Assembly: GCA_027063755.1 (NCBI GenBank)
Contig: JAMORD010000182.1
Coordinates: 1-18,815, forward strand
DNA from: a bacterium
GTDB lineage: Bacteria; Coprothermobacterota; Coprothermobacteria; Coprothermobacterales; JAADFF01
Length of the DNA: 18,815 bases
Direction: 5' to 3'
Part shown: in pieces, positions 4,064 to 18,815 of the stretch
Layout: each line of letters begins with the position of its first letter
Numbering within the stretch: the first letter of the stretch is position 1
Notes under the pieces: model-generated
Databases searched by the model: none
Told to the model about the DNA's origin: nothing
The model's input: the letters and a program-made list of their open reading frames with translations, nothing else
Made by a program: the position numbers and the translations under genes

Positions 4064-5469
4064 AAAGAAAATTGTTTGTAGTAATGGGTATACTACTTAT
4101 TTTATTGGCCCTTATGAGCATAAATCGTGTAGGGGCATGGAATGTTAATATTATTGAGTTTTATCCAGATAGTGGTGTTGTAAAACTCAATGGTGAGACA
4201 GTACCCACTGCGTCAAGACCTATTATTGTCAATGACCGCTTGTATGTGCCTATTCGTACAGTATCCAATCTTATTGGTGCTACCATTACTTGGAATGCTA
4301 CGGATAGATATGCCACGATGTATGTTCCCGATTTTATCTCTATGTTGACTGAACTTGATGCAAAAGAGGAAGAGATAGCCGATTTACGAGCCCAGGTAGA
4401 TAGTGTGGGGGTATACGGCGATGTTTTGAAATTAATAACTGGTAAATATCTGTATAAAAACGAAGTTTCCCTCCAATCTCTAACTTATAGTGCTATTAAA
4501 GGTGCCATAGCCTCTTTGCATGATAAATATACCCGTTTTTTCACCCCTGACGAGGTATCTAAGAGAAAGGTTTTGTTGAGTGGCAATGTCCAGAGGGTTG
4601 GTATTGAGCTCACTCGCTCGTCTGGAAAATATATCATTTTAGATGTCATAGAAGGTTCTCCTGCATACTATGTGGGGCTTATGCCAGGTGATGTTGTTAA
4701 GGCTATTGATGATGTGTATGTAAGAGATATGCCATACGACGATGTCAAAATGATGTTGTCTTCTACCAGTAGCAGAGAAGTAAAATTGGATATTATCCGT
4801 AATGGTACCCCTATGACATTCAATGTGGAAACATCGCATATTTCTACAAGTGACTTTTCATATGAACTCATGTCTATAGACGGAAAGAGCGTTGCATATA
4901 TACGCATAAAATCTATGGATGCCGATGTTACAGAGAAAATGGATGAGGCTTTGAAGAAAATATTCTTTACCCATCGTGGAGAGGCCGATGCGTACATTAT
5001 AGACCTAAGGGGCAACTTTGGTGGAGATTTAGATGCTGCACGCTCTCTGCTGGGATTTTTCCTTGGGGGTAAGAAGGTATTCACCCTGATAGATAATGAT
5101 GGCGAAGAAACACCTGTATATGCTCCTGTTAGTCAGTGGATGCTTTCAGGGGATAGACCTGTATATGTGCTTATTGACGAGGGGACGACATCATCTGCAG
5201 AAGTTTTTGCCATGGCTATGAAATCTTATGGGAGGGCTATCTTGGTAGGGCAGACGACATATGGCAAAGGTGTAGCATCTAGTGTATATGAGCTTAGTGA
5301 TGGTAGTATGCTTGTTTTAACTTCATATGAAATTGTTGGTCCTAAGGGTGAGATGCTTAATGGTGCTGGAGTACTTCCCCATGTATGGGCAATGACCCTA
5401 TATGCTAAAGATGAGGCTATAAATCTTTTTAAGAAGAGTGTCTTACATCCATCAGATTTGGGGAGATGA
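4060..5469 (+). CDS. Secreted S41 (C-terminal processing) peptidase with copper-amine-oxidase-like N-terminal domain
   Basis: 469 residues. Residues 1-25 form a signal peptide or membrane anchor (MKRK, then a long hydrophobic core). Residues about 30-90 match the copper amine oxidase N-terminal/stalk domain (RLYVPIRTVSNLIGA, then TWNATDRYATM), common in envelope proteins of thermophiles and Clostridia. A short charged, probably coiled-coil linker (95-117) follows. Next are the CTP cap region (KYTRFFTPDE, 156-165), a PDZ domain (about 172-260, VIEGSPAYYVGLMPGD) and the protease core. The likely catalytic serine is S378 (GTTSSAE) and the lysine K403 (TTYGKG), 25 residues apart as in E. coli Prc and B. 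subtilis CtpB. It should act outside the membrane on unfolded or tagged proteins. It is co-transcribed with holA and the downstream HAD gene. Confidence 0.93.
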   Translation: MKRKLFVVMGILLILLALMSINRVGAWNVNIIEFYPDSGVVKLNGETVPTASRPIIVNDRLYVPIRTVSNLIGATITWNATDRYATMYVPDFISMLTELDAKEEEIADLRAQVDSVGVYGDVLKLITGKYLYKNEVSLQSLTYSAIKGAIASLHDKYTRFFTPDEVSKRKVLLSGNVQRVGIELTRSSGKYIILDVIEGSPAYYVGLMPGDVVKAIDDVYVRDMPYDDVKMMLSSTSSREVKLDIIRNGTPMTFNVETSHISTSDFSYELMSIDGKSVAYIRIKSMDADVTEKMDEALKKIFFTHRGEADAYIIDLRGNFGGDLDAARSLLGFFLGGKKVFTLIDNDGEETPVYAPVSQWMLSGDRPVYVLIDEGTTSSAEVFAMAMKSYGRAILVGQTTYGKGVASSVYELSDGSMLVLTSYEIVGPKGEMLNGAGVLPHVWAMTLYAKDEAINLFKKSVLHPSDLGR

Positions 5470-6207: not shown

Positions 6208-7452
6208 ATGGCGGGTTTTCTTGATGCAGAGAAGATTCTTAGTAGTAGGGCGAAGTCTTTAAATCCATCAGCCATAAGAGAGATTTTTAAATACACTGGT
6301 GTCAATGGAATTATTTCACTTGCCGGTGGATATCCAGAGCCGGGACTGTTTCCGATAGATAAGATCAAACAGGCGGTTAACTCTGCCATAGATAAGTATG
6401 GTCCAAAAATGATGCAATATTCTCCTACGCAGGGCGTACCAGAATTTCTTGAGTATCTTCGCTGGTTTATGAGGGAAAAAGAAGGGTGTCATCACTGTGA
6501 TGAAGAGGCTATTATGGTTGTTAGTGCTTCTCAGCAGGCATTGAGCTTACTTGCCCAGGTTCTCGTTGATCCCGGAGATATCATTATTGTAGAGGAACCC
6601 ACATATGTTGGTGGTCTCGTAGCGTTTCGCTCCATGCAAGCTCGCTTTGTAGGAATTCCTATGGATGACAACGGCATGGATATGGATATTCTTGAGCAAA
6701 AGCTGAAAAAGCATCGTGCCAAGGGTGATCCCGTCAAGGCCATCTACACTATTCCAACATTCCAAAACCCGGCAGGTTATATGATGAGTGTAGAGAGAAG
6801 AAGAAGGATTGTAGAGCTTGCCAAAGAATATAATGTGCTCGTCATAGAAGATGATCCTTATGGCTATCTTGTATATGAAGGCGAGCGACCTCCAACAATT
6901 AAGTCTTTTGACGATGGTTCTACTGTTGTTTACCTTTCTACATATTCTAAGACGCTTATTCCCGGATTCAGACTAGGCTTTGCCGTTGGTCACCCAGAAA
7001 TTATAAGAAAAATGGTTGTTGCTAAGCAGGCTGCCGATCTCTGTACATCTGCATTTGTTCAGTATGCAACCCTGGAATATATGAATCTTGGTTTCTTTGA
7101 AGAGCACCTTGAGACTCTTAGAGAAAGTTACGGTGTAAAAATGAGGGTTATGCTTGATGCCTTGCAAGAGCATTTTGGCGATGTAGAAGGTGTCAAGTGG
7201 TCTATGCCTAAAGGTGGGTTCTTTATTTGGATGGAGTTGCCTGAGTGGGTAGATACATACGAAATGTTTAGGTACTCTGTTGATGCCGGTGTTGTTTATG
7301 TCTATGGTTCTGCATTCTATCCATATCCTGAGCTTGGCAAACGCAACACACTGAGACTGAACTTCTCACTGCCAACAGCTGAGGATATCAAGGAGGGTAT
7401 TAAGCGGCTGAGACGGGCTTACGAGAAATACAAAGAAGATAGGGCAATGTAA
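6208..7452 (+). CDS. PLP-dependent aminotransferase (fold type I, 2-aminoadipate/MocR-like group)
   Basis: 414 residues from ATG 6208; an in-frame ATG at 6202 is only 3 nt from the GGAGG (6194-6198), while 6208 has 9-nt spacing and is preferred. PLP-enzyme landmarks: QYSPTQGVPEFLEYL near the N-terminal part, SASQQALSLLAQVLVDPGD, the VEEPTYVGG loop, FQNPAGYMMS with the cofactor-contacting Asn, VIEDDPYGYLVY with the Asp that pairs with the pyridine nitrogen, and STYSKTLIPGFRLGF with the Schiff-base lysine K248. RLNFSL near the C-terminus should hold the substrate-carboxylate Arg. Relatives include LysN (2-aminoadipate), aromatic and kynurenine aminotransferases, often broad in range, so the exact substrate is open. 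It stands alone between a promoter-like region and a terminator. Confidence 0.92.
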   Translation: MAGFLDAEKILSSRAKSLNPSAIREIFKYTGVNGIISLAGGYPEPGLFPIDKIKQAVNSAIDKYGPKMMQYSPTQGVPEFLEYLRWFMREKEGCHHCDEEAIMVVSASQQALSLLAQVLVDPGDIIIVEEPTYVGGLVAFRSMQARFVGIPMDDNGMDMDILEQKLKKHRAKGDPVKAIYTIPTFQNPAGYMMSVERRRRIVELAKEYNVLVIEDDPYGYLVYEGERPPTIKSFDDGSTVVYLSTYSKTLIPGFRLGFAVGHPEIIRKMVVAKQAADLCTSAFVQYATLEYMNLGFFEEHLETLRESYGVKMRVMLDALQEHFGDVEGVKWSMPKGGFFIWMELPEWVDTYEMFRYSVDAGVVYVYGSAFYPYPELGKRNTLRLNFSLPTAEDIKEGIKRLRRAYEKYKEDRAM

Positions 7453-7465
7453 ATCTTTTATTAGA

Positions 7466-7473
7466 TGTAGAAT
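7466..7473 (+). promoter_or_regulatory. Candidate -10 (TAGAAT) just upstream of terminator
   Basis: TG-TAGAAT at 7466-7473, followed by AAA, directly precedes the terminator arms, the same arrangement as at 608-650. Initiation near 7480 would drop much of the 5' arm and allow transcription of the Ogg gene. No good -35 is visible. Motif-level evidence only. Confidence 0.3.
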
Positions 7474-7476
7474 AAA

Positions 7477-7509
7477 TGGGAGGGGAGGGGTAACCCTCCT
7501 CATTTTTTG
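7477..7509 (+). terminator. Terminator after aminotransferase gene
   Basis: GGGAGGGGAGGGGT pairs imperfectly (one or two bulged G) with ACCCTCCTC across a short TAA loop, followed by ATTTTTT. The G-rich arm could pair in more than one register. The ribosome site of the next gene follows at once (7514-7520). Confidence 0.75.
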
Positions 7510-7526
7510 TAAAGAGGTGGATAGAT

Positions 7527-8186
7527 GTGTATCGTAAAGATGTTATAGATATGTGGAGAGAAAAATATTCGGAGATAAAGGATATTATTGAGACACGACT
7601 TAATGAATTTTCCGATATTTGGAGACATGCAGATGATGAAAGGCTATTTGCGGAGTTTATTTTTTGTCATCTTACCCCTCAGAGTAAAGCCAAGGTGTGC
7701 TGGCGAGCAGTAGAGTGTTTAAGGAATAAAGATTTCCTACTACACGGAGAAGAAGAGGAAATAAAGAGCTGTCTTGTTGGAGTGCGTTTTAAAAATAACA
7801 AAGCTGGTTATATTGTCAGGTCTCGTGAGCAGTATTGGAATTATCCTGGCGGCTTTAGACAGTTTCTTGTGGATATTGGTCTTCCAGACGATGTGATGTC
7901 TGCCAGAGAATATCTGGTGAAGCATGTGAAGGGCATGGGATACAAAGAGGCAAGCCATTTTCTGCGTAATATTGGGTTTGGTAAAGATATAGCGATACTG
8001 GATAGGCATATACTGAAAAATCTTGTGAGAGTTGGTGCTATTCCGAAGGTGCCTAATTCTTTGACAAGGAAACGCTACCTTGAGATAGAAGGATTTATGA
8101 GAGAACTTTCGCAGAGTATAAGCATACCTATGGACCATTTGGATCTACTCTTATGGTATCTTGAGGCTGGAGAAGTATTTAAGTAG
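7527..8186 (+). CDS. Archaeal-type 8-oxoguanine DNA glycosylase/AP lyase (Ogg2)
   Basis: 219 residues; GTG 7527 follows AGAGGTGG (7513-7520) at good spacing, and an ATG at 7551 is possible but less well placed. It is a base-excision-repair enzyme that removes 8-oxoguanine and cleaves the strand at the abasic site. The helix-hairpin-helix segment KGMGYKEASHFLRNIG (135-150) carries the Schiff-base lysine K140, and DIAILDRHIL (154-163) carries the catalytic Asp D159, both laid out as in the Ogg2 family described from Methanocaldococcus and Thermotoga. The N-terminal half (WRHADDERLFAEFIFCHLTP) is also typical of that family. Its length fits Ogg2 (about 200-220 residues) and not human-type OGG1. 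Its stop overlaps the convergent PhoU-like gene by 8 bp with no terminator between them. Confidence 0.9.
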   Translation: MYRKDVIDMWREKYSEIKDIIETRLNEFSDIWRHADDERLFAEFIFCHLTPQSKAKVCWRAVECLRNKDFLLHGEEEEIKSCLVGVRFKNNKAGYIVRSREQYWNYPGGFRQFLVDIGLPDDVMSAREYLVKHVKGMGYKEASHFLRNIGFGKDIAILDRHILKNLVRVGAIPKVPNSLTRKRYLEIEGFMRELSQSISIPMDHLDLLLWYLEAGEVFK

Positions 8187-8790
8187 TATGTATCTCTTTA
8201 AGGGCATCAAGGTATGTCTGCTTTAGTTTTATTGTTTCTTTTGCAGTATCTCCCAGTAGTTCTATATGCCTTGATATTCGTCCCAGCATAATCATTGAAC
8301 TACTGGATATATCTTCTTCTTCAAGAACCTCGGTAATCTGGCGATATTGGATATCTATAACCATATCTCTCTGCTCTGGTTTGAGTTTGAACGGAGCAGA
8401 AAGTGGTATCAGATCGCCATATGTTTCTTTGAGAATCTCAAGCATCTGTTTCATGACAGATGCAGTGTATCCTGGTATACTGGGTAGTTCCCTGAGCATA
8501 CGGATATTAGATAGTATCAGGTCACTACTCTCTTCAATTTTTAATGCTAATTCCAACAATGTCAAAATAGCCAATATTTCTGTTTCGTTACATGTAAGGG
8601 CAAGGTGTTTGATGCTAAGCTTGTATATGTCTGCCAGTTCATCATCTATAAGATCTTCTATATGATCTATTTCCATAACATTTTCATCTTGTCCACTCAT
8701 ATCAAGAAATACAATAGTCTTATCAAGTTGTTTTTGGAGAAGTGATATGTTCATAATGACATGTCTTTCAAGTGGATTTTTCCACTTCAC
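8179..8790 (-). CDS. PhoU-like helical protein of a two-component operon
   Basis: 203 residues, almost entirely helical and acidic. The start is GTG at 8790, with GGAGG (8802-8798) 7 nt upstream on the minus strand; it overlaps the kinase stop by 4 nt (GTGA), so the two are coupled. Two halves each hold an E-x3-D signature at the end of a helix: IEESSD (85-90) and HIELLGD (175-181, E177/D181). The second resembles the metal-binding 'ErigD' motif of PhoU domains. PhoU proteins damp PhoR/PhoB signalling and phosphate uptake. Membership here rests on this repeat pattern, on length and on its place after a PhoB/PhoR-like pair. It could instead be an unrelated helical regulator. No Pst transporter genes lie nearby. 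Confidence 0.55.
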   Translation of the reverse strand: MKWKNPLERHVIMNISLLQKQLDKTIVFLDMSGQDENVMEIDHIEDLIDDELADIYKLSIKHLALTCNETEILAILTLLELALKIEESSDLILSNIRMLRELPSIPGYTASVMKQMLEILKETYGDLIPLSAPFKLKPEQRDMVIDIQYRQITEVLEEEDISSSSMIMLGRISRHIELLGDTAKETIKLKQTYLDALKEIHTT

Positions 8791-9884
8791 CGCTTCTCCT
8801 CCGCAGGTGGTAGTTTAATCTGGAAAATGACACCTTGAGGTTGAGCCTGTAATATATCTATTTTGCCATTGTGCCATCTGACAACTTCTTTTACAATCAT
8901 CATGCCAAGACCCAAACCGCCTTTTTCTTTGCCTTTGCCACGGGTGACATACTTATCAAATATTTGCTTTTTCATGTCCTCAGACATGTTTTCACCGTGA
9001 TTTTCAACCTCAAGTACGACATACCCACTATCGTCAGTATAAGCCCTTACAATAATTTTCTCACCTTCTGGTGAATACTTCACACTATTGTCTATGAGGT
9101 TTAGTATAAGACTTTTCAGTAAACTCTTACTTCCCAGTACAGGTGGTATCGGTTCTTTGAGGTCGTATACAATCTGAATGTTTTTATCTCTAACGATAAA
9201 GCCATATTGCCAGAGGCTGTCTTTGATGAGCTGGGCAATATCTACTTTACCTGTTTTCATAGGGGATATGCCCCTATCAAGTCTAATAAGTGATATAAAG
9301 TCTTCTACAAGATGATATAGCCTGTCTATTTCCCACTTCAGCTTCTGGATTGTGTCAAGCATATCGGGCGTTTCTGCATAGTCCTCAAGATGTTCAACTA
9401 TGAGACTCATAGCAGTAAGAGGAGTACGCAGCTCATGAATGATACGCTGAAATACTTCTACCTCTTCACTCTTTGCTGCTTCGGCTGCATTGCTAACATG
9501 TCCCACAATACCATGGTCAACTCTAAGGAGGAATATCTGGGCCTTTTTTACTCCCAAAAGTTCCTTTTTTATAAGGGAAACACTGGCTGTGGTAAATTTT
9601 TCTTTGCTAAGAATCTTCTCTGCTGTTTTCAGCACTTCATAGTCAGGAATGATGTCGTGGAGTGGAGCGGGAACGGGAAAATCTTCTTCTAAGATTTCTG
9701 TAAATTTGGGGTTTTTGTATACAATATTGAGTTCTTCATCTAAAAGAAACACACCAAATGGTAAATGTTCAACAACATCAATAATAGATGTCTCTCCTAA
9801 TACTTGTCTTATCTCCGAGCGAGCCTCTTCATTTGCTGAAAATGGGCGGGAGATGTTATCTCCCGCCTTTTTCCACCATGGCAT
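8787..9884 (-). CDS. Cytoplasmic PAS-domain sensor histidine kinase (PhoR-like catalytic part)
   Basis: 365 residues with no membrane segment, so a soluble sensor. Residues about 33-95 look like a PAS domain (VVEHLPFGVFLLDEELNIVYKN). The HisKA dimerisation helix starts near 142 with VFQRIIHELRTPLT, phospho-acceptor H150. The ATPase domain follows: N box LNLIDNSVKYSPEGE (261-275), G1-like ENHGENMSEDM (295-304, with the usual DNG.G degraded to ENHG) and G2 GGLGLGMMIVKEVV (322-335). The ATG is 5 nt after the response-regulator stop and has no obvious ribosome site, so translation probably depends on coupling. A perfect terminator-like hairpin lies within codons 6-14. The partner is the upstream response regulator. 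Confidence 0.93.
   Translation of the reverse strand: MPWWKKAGDNISRPFSANEEARSEIRQVLGETSIIDVVEHLPFGVFLLDEELNIVYKNPKFTEILEEDFPVPAPLHDIIPDYEVLKTAEKILSKEKFTTASVSLIKKELLGVKKAQIFLLRVDHGIVGHVSNAAEAAKSEEVEVFQRIIHELRTPLTAMSLIVEHLEDYAETPDMLDTIQKLKWEIDRLYHLVEDFISLIRLDRGISPMKTGKVDIAQLIKDSLWQYGFIVRDKNIQIVYDLKEPIPPVLGSKSLLKSLILNLIDNSVKYSPEGEKIIVRAYTDDSGYVVLEVENHGENMSEDMKKQIFDKYVTRGKGKEKGGLGLGMMIVKEVVRWHNGKIDILQAQPQGVIFQIKLPPAEEKR
9844..9872 (+). terminator. Perfect terminator-like hairpin inside the kinase gene (plus-strand orientation)
   Basis: GGCGGGAGAT (9845-9854) and ATCTCCCGCC (9858-9867) form a perfect 10-bp stem with a 3-nt loop, followed on the plus strand by TTTTT (9868-9872). It would stop plus-strand transcription running antisense to the kinase and regulator genes. 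On the sense (minus) strand it has an A-run before it and only CATTTTC after it, so it would be a weaker terminator or attenuator there. Confidence 0.6.
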
Positions 9885-13441: not shown

Positions 13442-13447
13442 AGGAGG
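13442..13447 (+). promoter_or_regulatory. Ribosome site that decides a TTG start for nuoE
   Basis: AGGAGG at 13442-13447. The frame's first start-type codon (GTG 13447) overlaps this site, so ribosomes placed by it would use TTG 13456, 8 nt downstream. Confidence 0.75.
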
Positions 13448-13455
13448 TGAGTATC

Positions 13456-13965
13456 TTGCCAGACAAGTTAACTTATGAGGAAATAGTAAAGAAGCATATA
13501 GAGAGAAAAGGTAAAACTACAGAAGTTATTTTACCTGTTCTAGAGGAGATTCAGGAGACTTACGGCTATCTGCCCCGTGAGGCCATGGAGTATCTTGCAG
13601 AGGCTTTAAAAATTTCACCTGCTGTTGTATACAGTACAGCTACTTTTTATCACTTCTTCTCACTTGAGCCAAAGGGTGATGTCATCATTAGGGTGTGCCG
13701 TGGAACGGCATGTCATGTTATGGGAAGTGGCATTATTATGAACGAACTTATGGATGAGTTGGGACTTCAGGGGGAGGGAACAACCCCCGATGGTAAGTTT
13801 ACTCTGGAATCTGTAGGTTGTATCGGTTGTTGTAGTACCGGACCCAACATGGTTGTTGTGAGGAATGGTAAGGAAGAAATATTTGGATATCTCACACCTC
13901 AGAAGGCTCGTGAGGTTGTGAAGAAGATTAAAGAGCAGATACAGTCTCAGGGTGTGGGGGTGTAA
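13456..13965 (+). CDS. NuoE-like [2Fe-2S] subunit of NADH-linked formate dehydrogenase complex
   Basis: 169 residues from TTG 13456. It is a thioredoxin-fold ferredoxin like NuoE, HndA or HydC. An N-terminal helical region (LPVLEEIQETYGYLP, 26-40) precedes the fold. The [2Fe-2S] ligands are C81 and C86 (CRGTACHVMG) and C122 and C126 (GCIGCC), the C-x4-C ... C-x3-C pattern. It carries single electrons to or from the flavin subunit encoded 3 nt downstream. Together with the next two genes it forms a three-subunit soluble complex (inference from gene order, as in HydABC hydrogenases and NAD-linked formate dehydrogenases). No membrane NuoA/H/J/K/L/M/N genes are present in the visible part. Confidence 0.93.
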   Translation: MPDKLTYEEIVKKHIERKGKTTEVILPVLEEIQETYGYLPREAMEYLAEALKISPAVVYSTATFYHFFSLEPKGDVIIRVCRGTACHVMGSGIIMNELMDELGLQGEGTTPDGKFTLESVGCIGCCSTGPNMVVVRNGKEEIFGYLTPQKAREVVKKIKEQIQSQGVGV

Positions 13966-13968
13966 GCG

Positions 13969-15861
13969 GTGAGGTATACATTTGAGACTTTAGAAAAGAT
14001 AAGAGGCGAGTATAGAGAACGCATAGAGATAAGGAAAAAGAGAACACTGGAGCCGGGGAAGAAATATATTCTGACATGTGGTGGTACATCATGTCTTAGT
14101 ATTGGTGGTGAAAAACCTACATATCAGCTTTTTAAAGAGATAATAGAAAAAGAGGGGCTTGAGGATAAGATAGAAGTTGTTAATGTTGGTTGTATGCGTA
14201 TGTGTTCTGAAGGTCCCCTTGTGGCCATGTATCCCGGTGGTGTTTTGTACACTAAAGTAAAAGATGAGGAGACGGCCAAGCAGATAATAGATGCCGCTCT
14301 CAGCGAAAATCCATATGTAGAAGGACATCATTATAAAGACCCTCTAACGGGAGAGATTATTCACCACATGTGGGAAATTCCATTTTTCAAATATCAGGAA
14401 AGTGTTGTGCTGGAAAGAGTAGGTCTTATAGACCCAACAAGTGTTGAAGAGTATATAGCCACTGGAGGCTATTTCGGCCTTGCCCGTGCCCTGAAGATGT
14501 CTCCCGATGATGTGATACAGGAAGTTTATAATAGTGGACTAAGGGGGCGTGGTGGTGCAGGATTTCCTACAGGGCTGAAGTGGAAATTTGCCAGACAAGC
14601 ACAAGGTGAGCCCAAATATGTTATTGCCAATGGTGATGAGGGAGATCCCGGTGCATATATGAATAGGGCAGAGATGGAAGGAGCCCCATTTGCTCTTATA
14701 GAAGGTTTGACCATTGCTGGATATGCCATAGGTGCTTCTAAGGGGTATATATACACAAGGGCAGAGTATCCCCTTGCAGCACATCTTCTTGAACATGCCA
14801 TCAAAGTTGCCAAAGAGAAAGGTCTTTTGGGAGAGAATATCTTAGGTACAGATTTTTCCTTTGATATAGAGGTATTTAAAGGTGCCGGTGCCTTTGTGTG
14901 CGGTGAGGAGACGGCCCTTATCGCCTCTATTGAAGGTAAAGCAGGAAGACCAAGACCAAGACCACCATTCCCAGCCCAGAAAGGGCTTTTTGGTAAGCCT
15001 ACAATTATTAACAATGTTGAAACCCTCATGAATGTTGCCCTCATAATGGAAAAAGGGGCGGATTGGTTTAGACAGTTTGGTACGGATAGAAGTCCCGGTA
15101 CCAAAGTGTTTGCCCTTGCCGGTTCGCTAAATGTCAGTGGTCTTGCCGAAGTATCACTTGGTACGCCAATAAAAGTGTTACTTGAAGATATAGGTAGAGG
15201 TGCACCGGAAGGCCATACATTGAAGGCCGTTCAGCTTGGTGGTCCTTCTGGTGGTTGTGTGCCCACAGAGCACTTTGATGCTCCCATAGATTATGAGAGT
15301 CTCGGTTCTCTTGGTGCTATTATGGGTTCTGGTGGTGTTATTGCCCTTGATGAGACTTCTTGTATGGTTGATGTTGCAAAGTTTTTCATTGAATTTACAA
15401 AGAATGAGTCTTGTGGCCAGTGTACACCATGCCGAGATGGACTTGTAGAGATGTATGATATTCTTGACCGTATCACACAGGGCAAAGGAACTATGGAGGA
15501 TCTGGAAAAATTGGAAAAGATGGCTGTGACGGTAAAAAATACCTCACTGTGTGGTCTGGGACAGACGGCTCCGGGACCAGTTCTTTCTACGCTGAGATAC
15601 TTTAAAGATGAGTATATAGCCCACATTGAAGAAAAAAAGTGTCCTGCAAAGGCGTGCTTGCCACTGATTGAATATTACATTGTGCCTGAGGCATGTAAGG
15701 GATGTACCATTTGTGCCAAAAACTGTCCTGTTGGTGCTATTTCTGGTGAGCCGGGTAAATTGCATGTTATTGACCCTGAAGCCTGTGTGAAATGTGGCAC
15801 ATGTATGGCTGTATGCCCATTTGATGCCATTATTAAGATTGATGCCTTTGGAAAGGAGTGA
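13969..15861 (+). CDS. NuoF-like NADH/FMN subunit with extra Fe-S domains (HydB/HndC type)
   Basis: 630 residues; GTG 13969 after GGGGGTG, 3 nt past the nuoE stop. Domains: an N-terminal thioredoxin-like [2Fe-2S] domain (C37, C42, C75, C79); the FMN- and NADH-binding core with GLRGRGGAGFPTGLKW (190-205), GDEGDPGAYMNR (222-233) and GAGAFVCGEETALIASIEG (305-323); the SLBB region; the [4Fe-4S] site ESCGQCTPCRDG with C482, C485, C488 and a distant C528; and a C-terminal two-cluster ferredoxin (C576-C586 and C606-C616). This layout is that of HydB/HndC-type subunits of soluble, often electron-bifurcating complexes, rather than plain respiratory NuoF, which lacks the terminal extras. It is the NAD(H) entry point of the complex. 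Confidence 0.95.
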   Translation: MRYTFETLEKIRGEYRERIEIRKKRTLEPGKKYILTCGGTSCLSIGGEKPTYQLFKEIIEKEGLEDKIEVVNVGCMRMCSEGPLVAMYPGGVLYTKVKDEETAKQIIDAALSENPYVEGHHYKDPLTGEIIHHMWEIPFFKYQESVVLERVGLIDPTSVEEYIATGGYFGLARALKMSPDDVIQEVYNSGLRGRGGAGFPTGLKWKFARQAQGEPKYVIANGDEGDPGAYMNRAEMEGAPFALIEGLTIAGYAIGASKGYIYTRAEYPLAAHLLEHAIKVAKEKGLLGENILGTDFSFDIEVFKGAGAFVCGEETALIASIEGKAGRPRPRPPFPAQKGLFGKPTIINNVETLMNVALIMEKGADWFRQFGTDRSPGTKVFALAGSLNVSGLAEVSLGTPIKVLLEDIGRGAPEGHTLKAVQLGGPSGGCVPTEHFDAPIDYESLGSLGAIMGSGGVIALDETSCMVDVAKFFIEFTKNESCGQCTPCRDGLVEMYDILDRITQGKGTMEDLEKLEKMAVTVKNTSLCGLGQTAPGPVLSTLRYFKDEYIAHIEEKKCPAKACLPLIEYYIVPEACKGCTICAKNCPVGAISGEPGKLHVIDPEACVKCGTCMAVCPFDAIIKIDAFGKE

Positions 15862-15866
15862 GTGCG

Positions 15867-18815
15867 GTGGAGTATGTAAATATAAAGATTAATGGAATAC
15901 CTGTAAAGGCCAAAAAAGGTGCCAATGTTCTTGACACTGCCATTGAGAATGGGTTTTATATTCCACATCTGTGCCATGAAAAAGGGCTTTCTCCTGTTGG
16001 TGTGTGTCGCATGTGTGGTGTAAAAGTTAAGATTGGTGATAGATGGCTGAATAAAAATGGCACAGGACCACAGTCTATGATTGTTACTGCTTGTACCACT
16101 GAAGTTCAAGAGGGTATGGAGGTTTTCATAGATACCCCTGATATCTTAGAGTATCGCCGTCAGATTATGGAAATGAATATGACCCATCACTGTGGTGATT
16201 GTATAGGTCCGTGTATTGATGCATGTCCCGCCCACTCCGATATTCCTACATACCTTAGGCTTATAAAAGAAGGTAAATACCATGAGGCCGTTGCCGTAAT
16301 GAAAAAGTCTTATATATTGCCTGCTGTTCTTGGTAGGGTGTGTCCCGCTTTTTGTGAGCAGAAATGTCACAGAGGGGAACTTGAAGGTGCCGTTTCTATT
16401 AGACAGGCAAAGAAGTTTGCAGCAGATAGAGACCTTGAAGATGGTCCATGGATGCCTCAACTTCCTCCCTTTAATGGTAAGAGGGTTGCGGTCATAGGTG
16501 GAGGTCCTGGTGGTTTGTCTGCTGCTTATTATCTTAGACTAAAAGGCTATGAGGTAACAATATTTGAGAAGATGCCCAAACTTGGTGGCATGCTTCGTTA
16601 TGGCATTCCTGAATATAGGCTGCCCCGTGAGGTGCTTGACAAAGATATAGCCACCTCTCTCCTTTATGGCATACATGTAAAGACCGGTGTTGAGGTAGGA
16701 AAAGACATATCATTTGATGAAATTCGCTCCCAGTTTGACAGCGTTGTAATAGCCACCGGTGCATGGAAATCAAGAAAGATGAACATTCCCGGTGAAGATT
16801 TGCCCTATGTACAGGTAGGTGTAGACTTTATTACCAAGTTCCACAATGGTGAGAAGGTAGAGGTTGGTAAAAAAGTACTGGTTATTGGTGGTGGAGATGT
16901 GGCGATGGATGTTGCCCGTATCTCCCGCCGTCTTGGTGCCGATGTGACTGTTGTATATCGCCGTAGCAGAGCGGAAATGCCAGCCCACGATATAGAGGTC
17001 CTTGAGGCAGAGGAAGAGGGTGTGAAATTTGAGTTTCTTGCCACACCTGTGGCATTCCACGAGGGTGGCAAAGTAGAACTTGTGAGAATGAAATTGGGAG
17101 AGCCCGATGAAAGGGGTAGGAGAAGACCTATACCCATAGAAGGCTCTAACTTCTTCATGGAAGCCGATAGTGTGTTTATTGCCATAGGCCAGAAACCTGA
17201 TGGTAGCCTCTTAGAAAAATTGGGTATTGAAACAGATAGAGGCTATGCAAAGTATGACAAGCACACACTTCAAACCTCTCTTGGTGATGTGTTTATCATA
17301 GGCGATGCCGCTATGGGGCCACGCACAGTTATTGAGGCTATAGCACAGGGTAGAAAGGCAGCCGACATGGTAGATATGTATCACAAGGGTAAGCTTGACC
17401 TTGTGAAGAAGGCATTTAATGAGCCGTGGAAGTACATAAATGAGATTTACTCTGACAAGGAAATAAAGGACCTCATAATGGAGTGGAAGCCTTATAACCA
17501 TTTCTACAAAGAAGGTGAAATAGACTATAGTCATATCAAACCCGCTGAGAGATTGCCTCATAAGCGTAGACCCGCTGAAGAGAGGGTTAAAGACTTTGGT
17601 GAGATAGAGATTCCTTATACAGAAGAAGAAATTAGAGGAGAAACCTCCCGCTGTATGGAGTGCGGCTGTGATGCTGTAGATAGATGTCAGCTCAGAGAGT
17701 ATGCCACATTCTTTGCTATAGATTACGAAAACATTGACCACAAACCACGTAGTGGTGAGAAAGATACATCATCTGCTGTTATAGAGATTGACCCCAAGAA
17801 ATGTATTCTGTGTGAAAAGTGTATCAGGGCTTGCCAGGAGGTAACAGGTCTTGGTATTCTTACCCTTGCAAAGAGAGGAAAGGATACGCAAGTTGTTGCA
17901 TGGATGGGTGATCCTCTTGGGGAGACGGCATGTGTATCCTGTGGTAACTGTCTGCAGGTATGTCCTACCGGTGCCATTATCAAAAAGAGGGTTGATGAGC
18001 CTAGAGAAAGGTACTATCGCACAGAGACAGTCAGAACAACATGTCCTTATTGTGGTGTAGGATGTCAGCTTGAGGTTAGAGTTCAGCCTGAGGAAAGAAA
18101 AGTTGTAGAGGTTTACGGTGTGCACGATGAAAAAGAGGTCAATGGTACTATTGGTGAAACATGTGTCAAGGGTAGATTTGGCCTTGACTTTATCAATTCT
18201 CCCGATAGGTTGACAAAACCACTGATAAAGAAAGAAGGCAAGTTTGTTGAAGTATCTTGGGACGAAGCACTATCCTATGTGGCACAGCGTCTTACCGAGA
18301 TTAAAGAGAAGTATGGCCCTGATGCCATAGGTGGTTTTGCATCTGCCAAGTGTACCAATGAAGAAAACTACCTCTTCCAGAAATTTATGCGTGCGGTCAT
18401 TGGCACCAACAATGTTGATCACTGTGCAAGACTATGCCATGCATCTACTGTTACAGGTCTTGCCCGTGCCTTTGGCTCCGCTGCAATGACCAATACCATA
18501 CCAGATCTTGCCCTTGATGCAAATGTCATATTTGTTATAGGCTCCAACACAACCGAGACACATCCGGTAACCTCTTACTACATCAGAAAGGCACATAGAA
18601 ACGGTGCAACCCTCATTGTTGCCGACCCAAGGAAGATAGACCTTGCCAGAGAGGCAGATATATTCCTGCAGCTGAAACCTGGTACAGATATAGCCCTTAT
18701 CGGTGCCATGATGCATGTCATCATCAGAGATGGTTTGTGGGATAAGGAGTTTGTCAAAGAGAGAACACTGGGATTTGAAGAAGTTGCCCAGACTGTTAAG
18801 GATATGACCCCAGAG
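15867..18815 (+). CDS. Fused [2Fe-2S] - GltD/NfnB-like NAD(P) oxidoreductase - molybdopterin formate dehydrogenase alpha subunit (3' truncated)
   Basis: GTG 15867 starts 5 nt after the NuoF-like stop (GGAG at 15855-15858 as ribosome site). The frame stays open to the window edge: 983 residues, with several hundred expected beyond. Order: NuoG-like [2Fe-2S] domain (1-90; C36, C47, C50, C76); Cys-rich GltD-type N-terminal segment (C109-C120, C159-C167); FAD site VIGGGPGGLSAAYYL (209-223); NAD(P) site VIGGGDVAMDVARI (339-352); GDAAMGP (479-485); a Cys patch CMECGCDAVDRC (596-607); two [4Fe-4S] clusters (C646-C656, C689-C699); then the FdhA catalytic domain with its own cluster (C726, C729, C733, C766) and DHCARLCH (851-858). 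There C857 (TGC) replaces selenocysteine as Mo/W ligand. The expected reaction is formate/CO2 interconversion coupled to pyridine nucleotides. The formate substrate is inferred from the motif; a related molybdoenzyme is possible. Confidence 0.9.
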   Translation, partial: MEYVNIKINGIPVKAKKGANVLDTAIENGFYIPHLCHEKGLSPVGVCRMCGVKVKIGDRWLNKNGTGPQSMIVTACTTEVQEGMEVFIDTPDILEYRRQIMEMNMTHHCGDCIGPCIDACPAHSDIPTYLRLIKEGKYHEAVAVMKKSYILPAVLGRVCPAFCEQKCHRGELEGAVSIRQAKKFAADRDLEDGPWMPQLPPFNGKRVAVIGGGPGGLSAAYYLRLKGYEVTIFEKMPKLGGMLRYGIPEYRLPREVLDKDIATSLLYGIHVKTGVEVGKDISFDEIRSQFDSVVIATGAWKSRKMNIPGEDLPYVQVGVDFITKFHNGEKVEVGKKVLVIGGGDVAMDVARISRRLGADVTVVYRRSRAEMPAHDIEVLEAEEEGVKFEFLATPVAFHEGGKVELVRMKLGEPDERGRRRPIPIEGSNFFMEADSVFIAIGQKPDGSLLEKLGIETDRGYAKYDKHTLQTSLGDVFIIGDAAMGPRTVIEAIAQGRKAADMVDMYHKGKLDLVKKAFNEPWKYINEIYSDKEIKDLIMEWKPYNHFYKEGEIDYSHIKPAERLPHKRRPAEERVKDFGEIEIPYTEEEIRGETSRCMECGCDAVDRCQLREYATFFAIDYENIDHKPRSGEKDTSSAVIEIDPKKCILCEKCIRACQEVTGLGILTLAKRGKDTQVVAWMGDPLGETACVSCGNCLQVCPTGAIIKKRVDEPRERYYRTETVRTTCPYCGVGCQLEVRVQPEERKVVEVYGVHDEKEVNGTIGETCVKGRFGLDFINSPDRLTKPLIKKEGKFVEVSWDEALSYVAQRLTEIKEKYGPDAIGGFASAKCTNEENYLFQKFMRAVIGTNNVDHCARLCHASTVTGLARAFGSAAMTNTIPDLALDANVIFVIGSNTTETHPVTSYYIRKAHRNGATLIVADPRKIDLAREADIFLQLKPGTDIALIGAMMHVIIRDGLWDKEFVKERTLGFEEVAQTVKDMTPE

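Follow-up and report, generated by a model that had tools for sequence, protein, structure and literature searches.

A GltD-like NADP(H) module inserted in an apparently intact formate dehydrogenase and encoded beside a predicted BfuBC core in a Coprothermobacterota genome

The closest described relatives of the locus analysed here are StnABC of Sporomusa ovata (PDB accession numbers 8oh5 and 8oh9) and Nfn-ABC of Caldicellulosiruptor saccharolyticus (9bov). The path of NADPH electrons in Stn leads from FAD through clusters C7, C6, C5, C4 and C3 to StnB, and C1–C2 form a dead side branch in an inactive formate dehydrogenase (FDH) domain; these two clusters have been described as an evolutionary leftover without function, their role being unclear (PMC10482914). 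The window, an 18,815-nucleotide stretch that is an entire contig (C182; JAMORD010000182.1) of a coprothermobacterotal metagenome-assembled genome (G000; GCA_027063755.1; 1.5 Mb, 251 contigs, 88% complete), carries a comparable three-gene set with NuoE- and HydB-like subunits. The third gene encodes a fusion of a NuoG-like domain, a GltD/NfnB-like flavin module and an FDH. The three genes probably specify a Bfu-type (HydBC-core) complex that links formate/CO2, NADP(H), NAD(H) and ferredoxin through a StnC-like A subunit with a live FDH end.

The three genes are the last on the contig and, like all features given below, lie on the plus strand. The NuoE/HydC/StnA-like subunit (BfuC; 13447–13965) has 172 residues (PF01257, 9.9e-46), the NuoF/HydB/StnB-like FMN subunit (BfuB; 13969–15861) has 630 residues with Complex1_51K, NADH_4Fe-4S and C-terminal Fer4 domains, and the fusion (A subunit; 15867–18815) is represented by the 5' 983 of about 1403 codons before it reaches the contig edge. 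Its frame is free of stops from GTG 15858/15867 to the contig end at 18815; the start at GTG 15867 is plausible, as it comes shortly after the stop of the preceding gene and AAAGGAG ends ~ 8 bases 5' of it. The window copy lacks the last ~ 420 residues. In a sister genome (G001, 93% complete) the same trio is complete, and its fusion of 1406 residues is 97% identical to the window copy. Comparison of the two copies gives a ratio of non-synonymous to synonymous substitution rates (dN/dS) of 0.04 (dS 0.48, dN 0.019); the fusion is under strong purifying selection and a chance frame is excluded by this value. Because the downstream genes stand at the end of another contig of G000 (C168), where the transporter gene that follows the fusion begins, the missing 3' part lies in the assembly gap between C182 and C168. 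A reading of the window from its letters alone (the sequence-only reading) had proposed a single polypeptide open from GTG 15867 to the edge, which the full-length copy confirms. The sequence past 18815 that it called for is available from the sister genome and not from G000 itself. The possibility that the fusion is an assembly chimera, or hides a gene boundary, is raised by a gene that runs off the contig end in a fragmented genome. Nonetheless, the same junctions occur in the second genome with full flanks, and the same architecture recurs in several other phyla. No frameshift or boundary was found within 15867–18815; a frameshift or chimera is very unlikely, with identical domain junctions in two assemblies, and can for practical purposes be set aside. 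The GltD-FDH fusion is real and conserved.

The fusion comprises, from N- to C-terminus, a NuoG-like [2Fe-2S] domain, a GltD/NfnB-like FAD-NADP(H) module, a bis-[4Fe-4S] domain and the FDH, with the Pfam order Fer2_4, Fer4_20, Pyr_redox_2, Fer4_Nqo3, Molybdop_Fe4S4 and Molybdopterin. The NuoG-like domain (15867–16178) retains Cys36, Cys47, Cys50 and Cys76, kept in all relatives compared. Ordinary FdhA has an uninterrupted HxxxCxxCxxxxxC motif, whereas in the fusion the GltD module splits HxxxC from xxC. Alignment with FdhA thus places the split [4Fe-4S] motif at 16188–17687, with His108 and Cys112 before the insert and Cys601 and Cys607 after it, and the same insert edges are seen in StnC-like proteins. 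The inserted module (16203–17666; Fer4_20, and Pyr_redox_2 with 3.7e-45) spans residues 113–600, contains Cys116, Cys120, Cys159, Cys163, Cys167, Cys596 and Cys599, and matches NfnI 5jca_L in a Foldseek search. Its FAD-binding GxGxxG motif (GGGPGG, in the context IGGGPGG; 16497–16514) and its NADP-binding GxGxxA motif (GGGDVA; 16887–16904) are intact. The latter is followed by YRR, with the intact Arg pair at Arg365-Arg366 (16959–16964); in the NfnB-like Fdh3B an Arg pair was proposed to grip the 2'-phosphate of NADP (PMC8965080). The ferredoxin-like 2x[4Fe-4S] domain (17778–17978; Fer4_Nqo3, 8e-09) has eight conserved cysteines. Searches by sequence and by fold both lead to the A subunits of Nfn-ABC (9bov), Stn (8oh5) and NfnABC of Thermococcus sibiricus (9n5u) as the nearest relatives of solved structure. 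The sequence-only reading had placed the insertion at about residues 105–610, close to the aligned boundaries, and had recognised both nucleotide motifs. Its proposal that the module sits in an FDH-type electron path, implying a second nucleotide site, is likewise supported at the level of sequence. It had compared the protein with ordinary FdhA, which does lack the insert; the layout is that of StnC and Nfn-Bfu with an intact FDH end, more than that of an ordinary FdhA with a novel insert.

The FDH portion begins with the proximal [4Fe-4S] domain (18024–18200; Molybdop_Fe4S4, 1.4e-13), which carries Cys726, Cys729, Cys733 and Cys766 as well as Lys768, and continues into the N-terminal part of the molybdopterin domain (18207–18815; PF00384, 1.4e-38). 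The active-site pair Cys857-His858 (18435–18440) lies in the motif DHCARLCH; the motif is DHCARLUH, with selenocysteine, in four relatives (L026, L027, L028 and L054). The conserved FDH Arg is residue 1054 of the G001 copy, beyond the window end. None of the FDH hallmarks tested is lost: the window has the Cys-His pair, the Lys and the four cluster cysteines, and the G001 copy has the Arg. The identification of an FDH catalytic subunit from the window thus stands for the Cys-His site, while the catalytic domain is only partial there. The full G001 copy scores 964.6 bits over the whole NCBI Fdh-alpha equivalog model TIGR01591 (cut-off 666.25), and the partial window copy 357.6 bits. The FDH half is 55–60% identical to ordinary FdhA and merely 23–31% to the corresponding ends of StnC-like proteins, and the active-site Cys/Sec-His is missing from the StnC-like proteins compared. 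The FDH end of the fusion is thus apparently intact, in contrast to the dead end of StnC. The dimethyl sulfoxide reductase (DMSOR) superfamily is diverse and this clade is known from sequence alone, so that a substrate other than formate could be envisaged for the molybdopterin site. The wide margin over the equivalog cut-off, the FDH-type Cys/Sec-His together with the RGQNNVQGACDM motif, and an adjacent formate/nitrite transporter gene make that highly improbable.

The two upstream genes, which the sequence-only reading had not drawn on, are predicted to complete the BfuBC bifurcating core, so that ferredoxin is likely to be another partner. Over almost its whole length the NuoF-like subunit can be aligned with 7t2r_B (1.9e-223), 9n5u_B, 7q4v_B and 8oh5_B, and among solved structures the NuoE-like subunit is closest to 9bov_C, 9n5u_C and 7p5h_C, all C subunits of bifurcating enzymes. 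The locus thereby combines, as Bfu enzymes do, an FMN subunit bearing extra Fe-S domains with a NuoE-like [2Fe-2S] subunit, and, as in type 1 Bfu enzymes, its A subunit itself bears a catalytic domain, here GltD and FDH in one chain. A NuoF tree did not resolve the position of the window protein. A non-bifurcating NAD(P)-linked FDH that merely equilibrates formate with NADPH and NADH would be compatible with the existence of stand-alone fusions lacking NuoE and NuoF, several of them beside folD, in which the A chain may act alone as a formate:NADP+ oxidoreductase, and Fdh3 of Thermococcus onnurineus carries out formate:NADP+ chemistry with separate subunits. However, the NuoF-like subunit encoded in the window retains the N-terminal [2Fe-2S] cysteines and the C-terminal 2x[4Fe-4S] regions, and these extra cluster domains are absent from non-bifurcating homologues (Schut et al. 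2022). We consider this alternative unlikely.

In the proposed bifurcating complex, formate would be oxidised (or CO2 reduced) at a Mo/W-bis-pyranopterin guanine dinucleotide site with a Cys ligand, and the electrons would reach the NuoG-type chain by way of the proximal [4Fe-4S] cluster and then the ferredoxin-like clusters. The FAD bound in the inserted GltD module would exchange hydride with NADP(H), and the clusters of this module would join the common chain through the split [4Fe-4S]. The chain would supply the FMN of the HydB/StnB-like subunit; there NAD(H)/ferredoxin bifurcation or confurcation is predicted to take place, gated by the NuoE-like subunit. Because the cluster ligand sets correspond to those of Stn and an intact FDH site stands at the end of the side branch, formate and NADP(H) may share one wire to the bifurcating core. 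The potentials of formate (about − 420 mV) and NADPH (about − 380 mV) lie between those of ferredoxin and NADH (Schut et al. 2022, table), so each could drive bifurcation and the two could exchange. Both mid-potential couples would then be coupled to the NAD(H)/ferredoxin pair, and direct formate:NADP+ electron transfer would also be possible. The metal, cofactor occupancy, electron path, direction and bifurcation itself are all inferred from sequence. The chances are about even that the complex is a dual-input bifurcating enzyme, in which live formate/CO2 and live NADP(H) sites on a shared Fe-S wire into the BfuBC core would allow one complex to equilibrate formate, NADPH, NADH and ferredoxin, and which would be the working equivalent of the FDH branch that is dead in Stn.

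Several observations weigh against the proposed complex. Intact sequence alone would be no proof of function, since the FDH branch of Stn is inactive and serves assembly. FdhD (PF02634) was not found in G000, G001, the single-contig genome G002 or G004, nor in the four selenocysteine-type fusion carriers searched, and it is present in six other fusion carriers. FdhD is usually required for FDH sulfuration, as in E. coli. Its absence lowers confidence in full FDH activity. The bifurcating role is drawn from the operon structure of one genus: outside it, no NuoE/NuoF genes were found directly upstream of a fusion where flanks were readable, the upstream flanks of L028, L056 and L060 being short. 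An AlphaFold model of residues 1–1190 of the G001 copy has low confidence (mean pLDDT 61, pTM 0.37), and no cofactor geometry was taken from it. An alternative that accommodates part of these observations is a Stn/Nfn-Bfu transhydrogenase acting on NADPH, NAD+ and ferredoxin, in which the FDH domain would be structural or needed for assembly and have little or no formate activity. The fusion does share the architecture and cluster inventory of StnC, the inactive FDH-like domain of Stn is needed for assembly (PMC10482914), and no FdhD was found. Nonetheless, the intact Cys-His, Arg and Lys, the far higher identity of the FDH half to ordinary FdhA than to StnC-like ends, the adjacent transporter and MobA-like genes and the strong purifying selection all speak for a domain in use, and we judge the transhydrogenase reading to be quite improbable. 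The genomes without a detected FdhD (G000, G001, G002, G004, G032, G179, G317 and G386) are carriers of intact FDH fusions, some of selenocysteine type, or their relatives.

Like StnC, the A subunit of the locus combines a NuoG-like [2Fe-2S] domain beside NuoE/HydB-like genes, a GltD module at the same split HxxxC...C motif, an FDH-like end and corresponding cluster ligand sets. StnC has 1172 residues and a catalytically inactive FDH domain, whereas the fusion has 1406 residues in G001, passes the Fdh-alpha cut-off and retains all active-site residues tested; it thus departs from Stn/Nfn-Bfu proteins, whose FDH-like end is dead or truncated. NfnABC of T. sibiricus is the best PDB match, over fusion residues 2–740, but its A subunit, of 963 residues, ends in an incomplete C-terminal domain and lacks an FDH site. 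Type 1 Fdh-Bfu enzymes, predicted for example in Carboxydothermus hydrogenoformans (Schut et al. 2022), share the BfuBC core and an FDH-bearing A subunit, in which no GltD/NADP(H) module has been described. Fdh3 of T. onnurineus couples a tungsten FDH with an NfnB-like NADP(H) protein and has demonstrated formate:NADP+ and ferredoxin activity (PMC8965080); that NfnB-like protein is a separate polypeptide, unlike the fused module here, and the purified complex was not reported to contain a NuoE/NuoF bifurcating core. Ordinary NAD-linked FdhA (FdsA of R. capsulatus, 6tg9; L029–L031) shares the [2Fe-2S], ferredoxin-like and FDH domains, the last with up to 60% identity, but has about 900 residues and no GltD insert; identity with plain NAD-FdhA is rejected on this ground. 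In FdhFeFe-Bfu of Clostridium autoethanogenum a BfuBC core also serves two mid-potential substrates, formate and H2 (PMC9304861), the second of which is, in contrast to the fusion, handled by extra subunits, and no GltD module is described in its A chain. Elsewhere, an NfnB-like insertion in HdrA was reported from ANME-1 (PMC9012536). No description of one A subunit with both sites intact was found in a literature search that left most subscription papers and all supplements outside, and the clade tables of Schut et al. 2022 might list one. An A subunit that unites the GltD/NADP(H) module with an apparently intact FDH would be a new form within the Bfu/Stn enzymes, Nfn-Bfu and Fdh-Bfu having been known separately.

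In G001 the fusion is immediately followed by a formate/nitrite-family (FNT) transporter gene (PF01226, 1.8e-76) and a MobA-like gene; in G000 both genes are at the end of the separate contig C168. The window's genome also encodes MoaA and fhs. The Prismane/CODH family has no match in G000 or G001, and Wood-Ljungdahl acetogenesis is rejected on this ground. The downstream transporter, fhs and the lack of CODH favour the production or use of formate in fermentation over acetogenesis. A link to glycine reductase (from formate through NADPH to Grd) is likewise rejected, since GrdB, which G002 and G004 have, was found neither in G000 nor in G001.

The FDH tree unites the window lineage with the ordinary FdhA L029 (88 bootstrap, 96 SH-aLRT), outside the main fused clade (100/99). 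The GltD tree places it with L146, an Nfn-Bfu-like protein of about 980 residues (SH-aLRT 96), again outside the fused clade (99). A single origin of all ten FDH-active fusions is rejected by the approximately unbiased (AU) test on the FDH tree (p about 1e-70) and occurs in 0% of bootstrap trees. When the window protein and the main fused clade were constrained as one group, AU rejection was marginal (p 0.057 for FDH and 0.096 for GltD), and a separate origin of the window fusion is therefore favoured, not proven. In L058 (2189–6295) and L060 (386–4375) the GltD module lies between two ferredoxin-like [4Fe-4S] clusters and not in the split His/Cys motif; this different site points to at least two insertion events among FDH-active fusions, and together with the FDH tree to more than one origin. 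The simplest reading for the window lineage is the joining of an Nfn-Bfu front to an FdhA back. The tree of dead StnC FDH domains has long branches and is uninformative on their relationship.

Among 386 genomes (the tally counts 325 genera represented by one or more good genomes), full-length FDH-active fusions occur in G001, in G000, where the copy is truncated, and in three genomes from a single other family, which use selenocysteine. A second scan of an 84,980-species collection with two short patterns, which gives a lower bound, found carriers in Poribacteria, Dehalococcoidia, Thermodesulfovibrionales, Thermoplasmata, another Chloroflexi, a Euryarchaeote and Fibrobacteria. The suspicion that similar fusions exist in databases, and the search it proposed for the same domain order elsewhere, are both answered by these carriers, and a domain survey lists GltD fused to DMSOR-family molybdoproteins (PMC6147048). 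FDH-active GltD fusions are recurrent yet rare, in about ten uncultured lineages and mostly without bifurcating genes. Three of the fusions adjoin folD (L055, 2087–7645; L056, 256–5355; L057, 4956–10044) and one region lies near methylene-tetrahydrofolate reductase (L058, 476–6295), which suggests single-chain NADPH-dependent CO2 reductases/FDHs of the methyl branch. The folD gene 5' of the L056 fusion (256–1163) appears to be split over two frames, by a frameshift or sequencing error. The modules also occur in another order: NuoE, a NuoF/HydB-GltD fusion of ~ 1030 residues in which GltD occupies the place of the C-terminal 2x[4Fe-4S], and an ordinary FdhA (L138, 3740–6823, with FdhA at 6836–9523; L058, 7694–10795, where this separate set lies downstream of the GltD-FDH fusion). 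Cut copies of the NuoF-GltD arrangement are found in L139 (4105–6411) and L137 (3264–4784). In L045 (1459–4212) an ordinary FdhA has an FDH domain that falls inside the fused clade, and a GltD-ended open reading frame lies just upstream (4163–5341), a possible fission of a GltD-FDH fusion.

The GltD, FDH and HydB modules have thus been assembled repeatedly in different orders, which clearly illustrates how anaerobic redox enzymes evolve by modules. From its sequence, the fusion looks like a working form of the Stn enzyme type hitherto known only with a dead FDH part. It keeps the Stn architecture with the FDH branch apparently alive, and so offers a direct comparison for what the FDH domain of Stn once did, or can do after being acquired again. 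Should both sites work, one complex would connect formate, NADPH, NADH and ferredoxin, and the formate:NADP+ route may be of use for NADPH regeneration or CO2 reduction.

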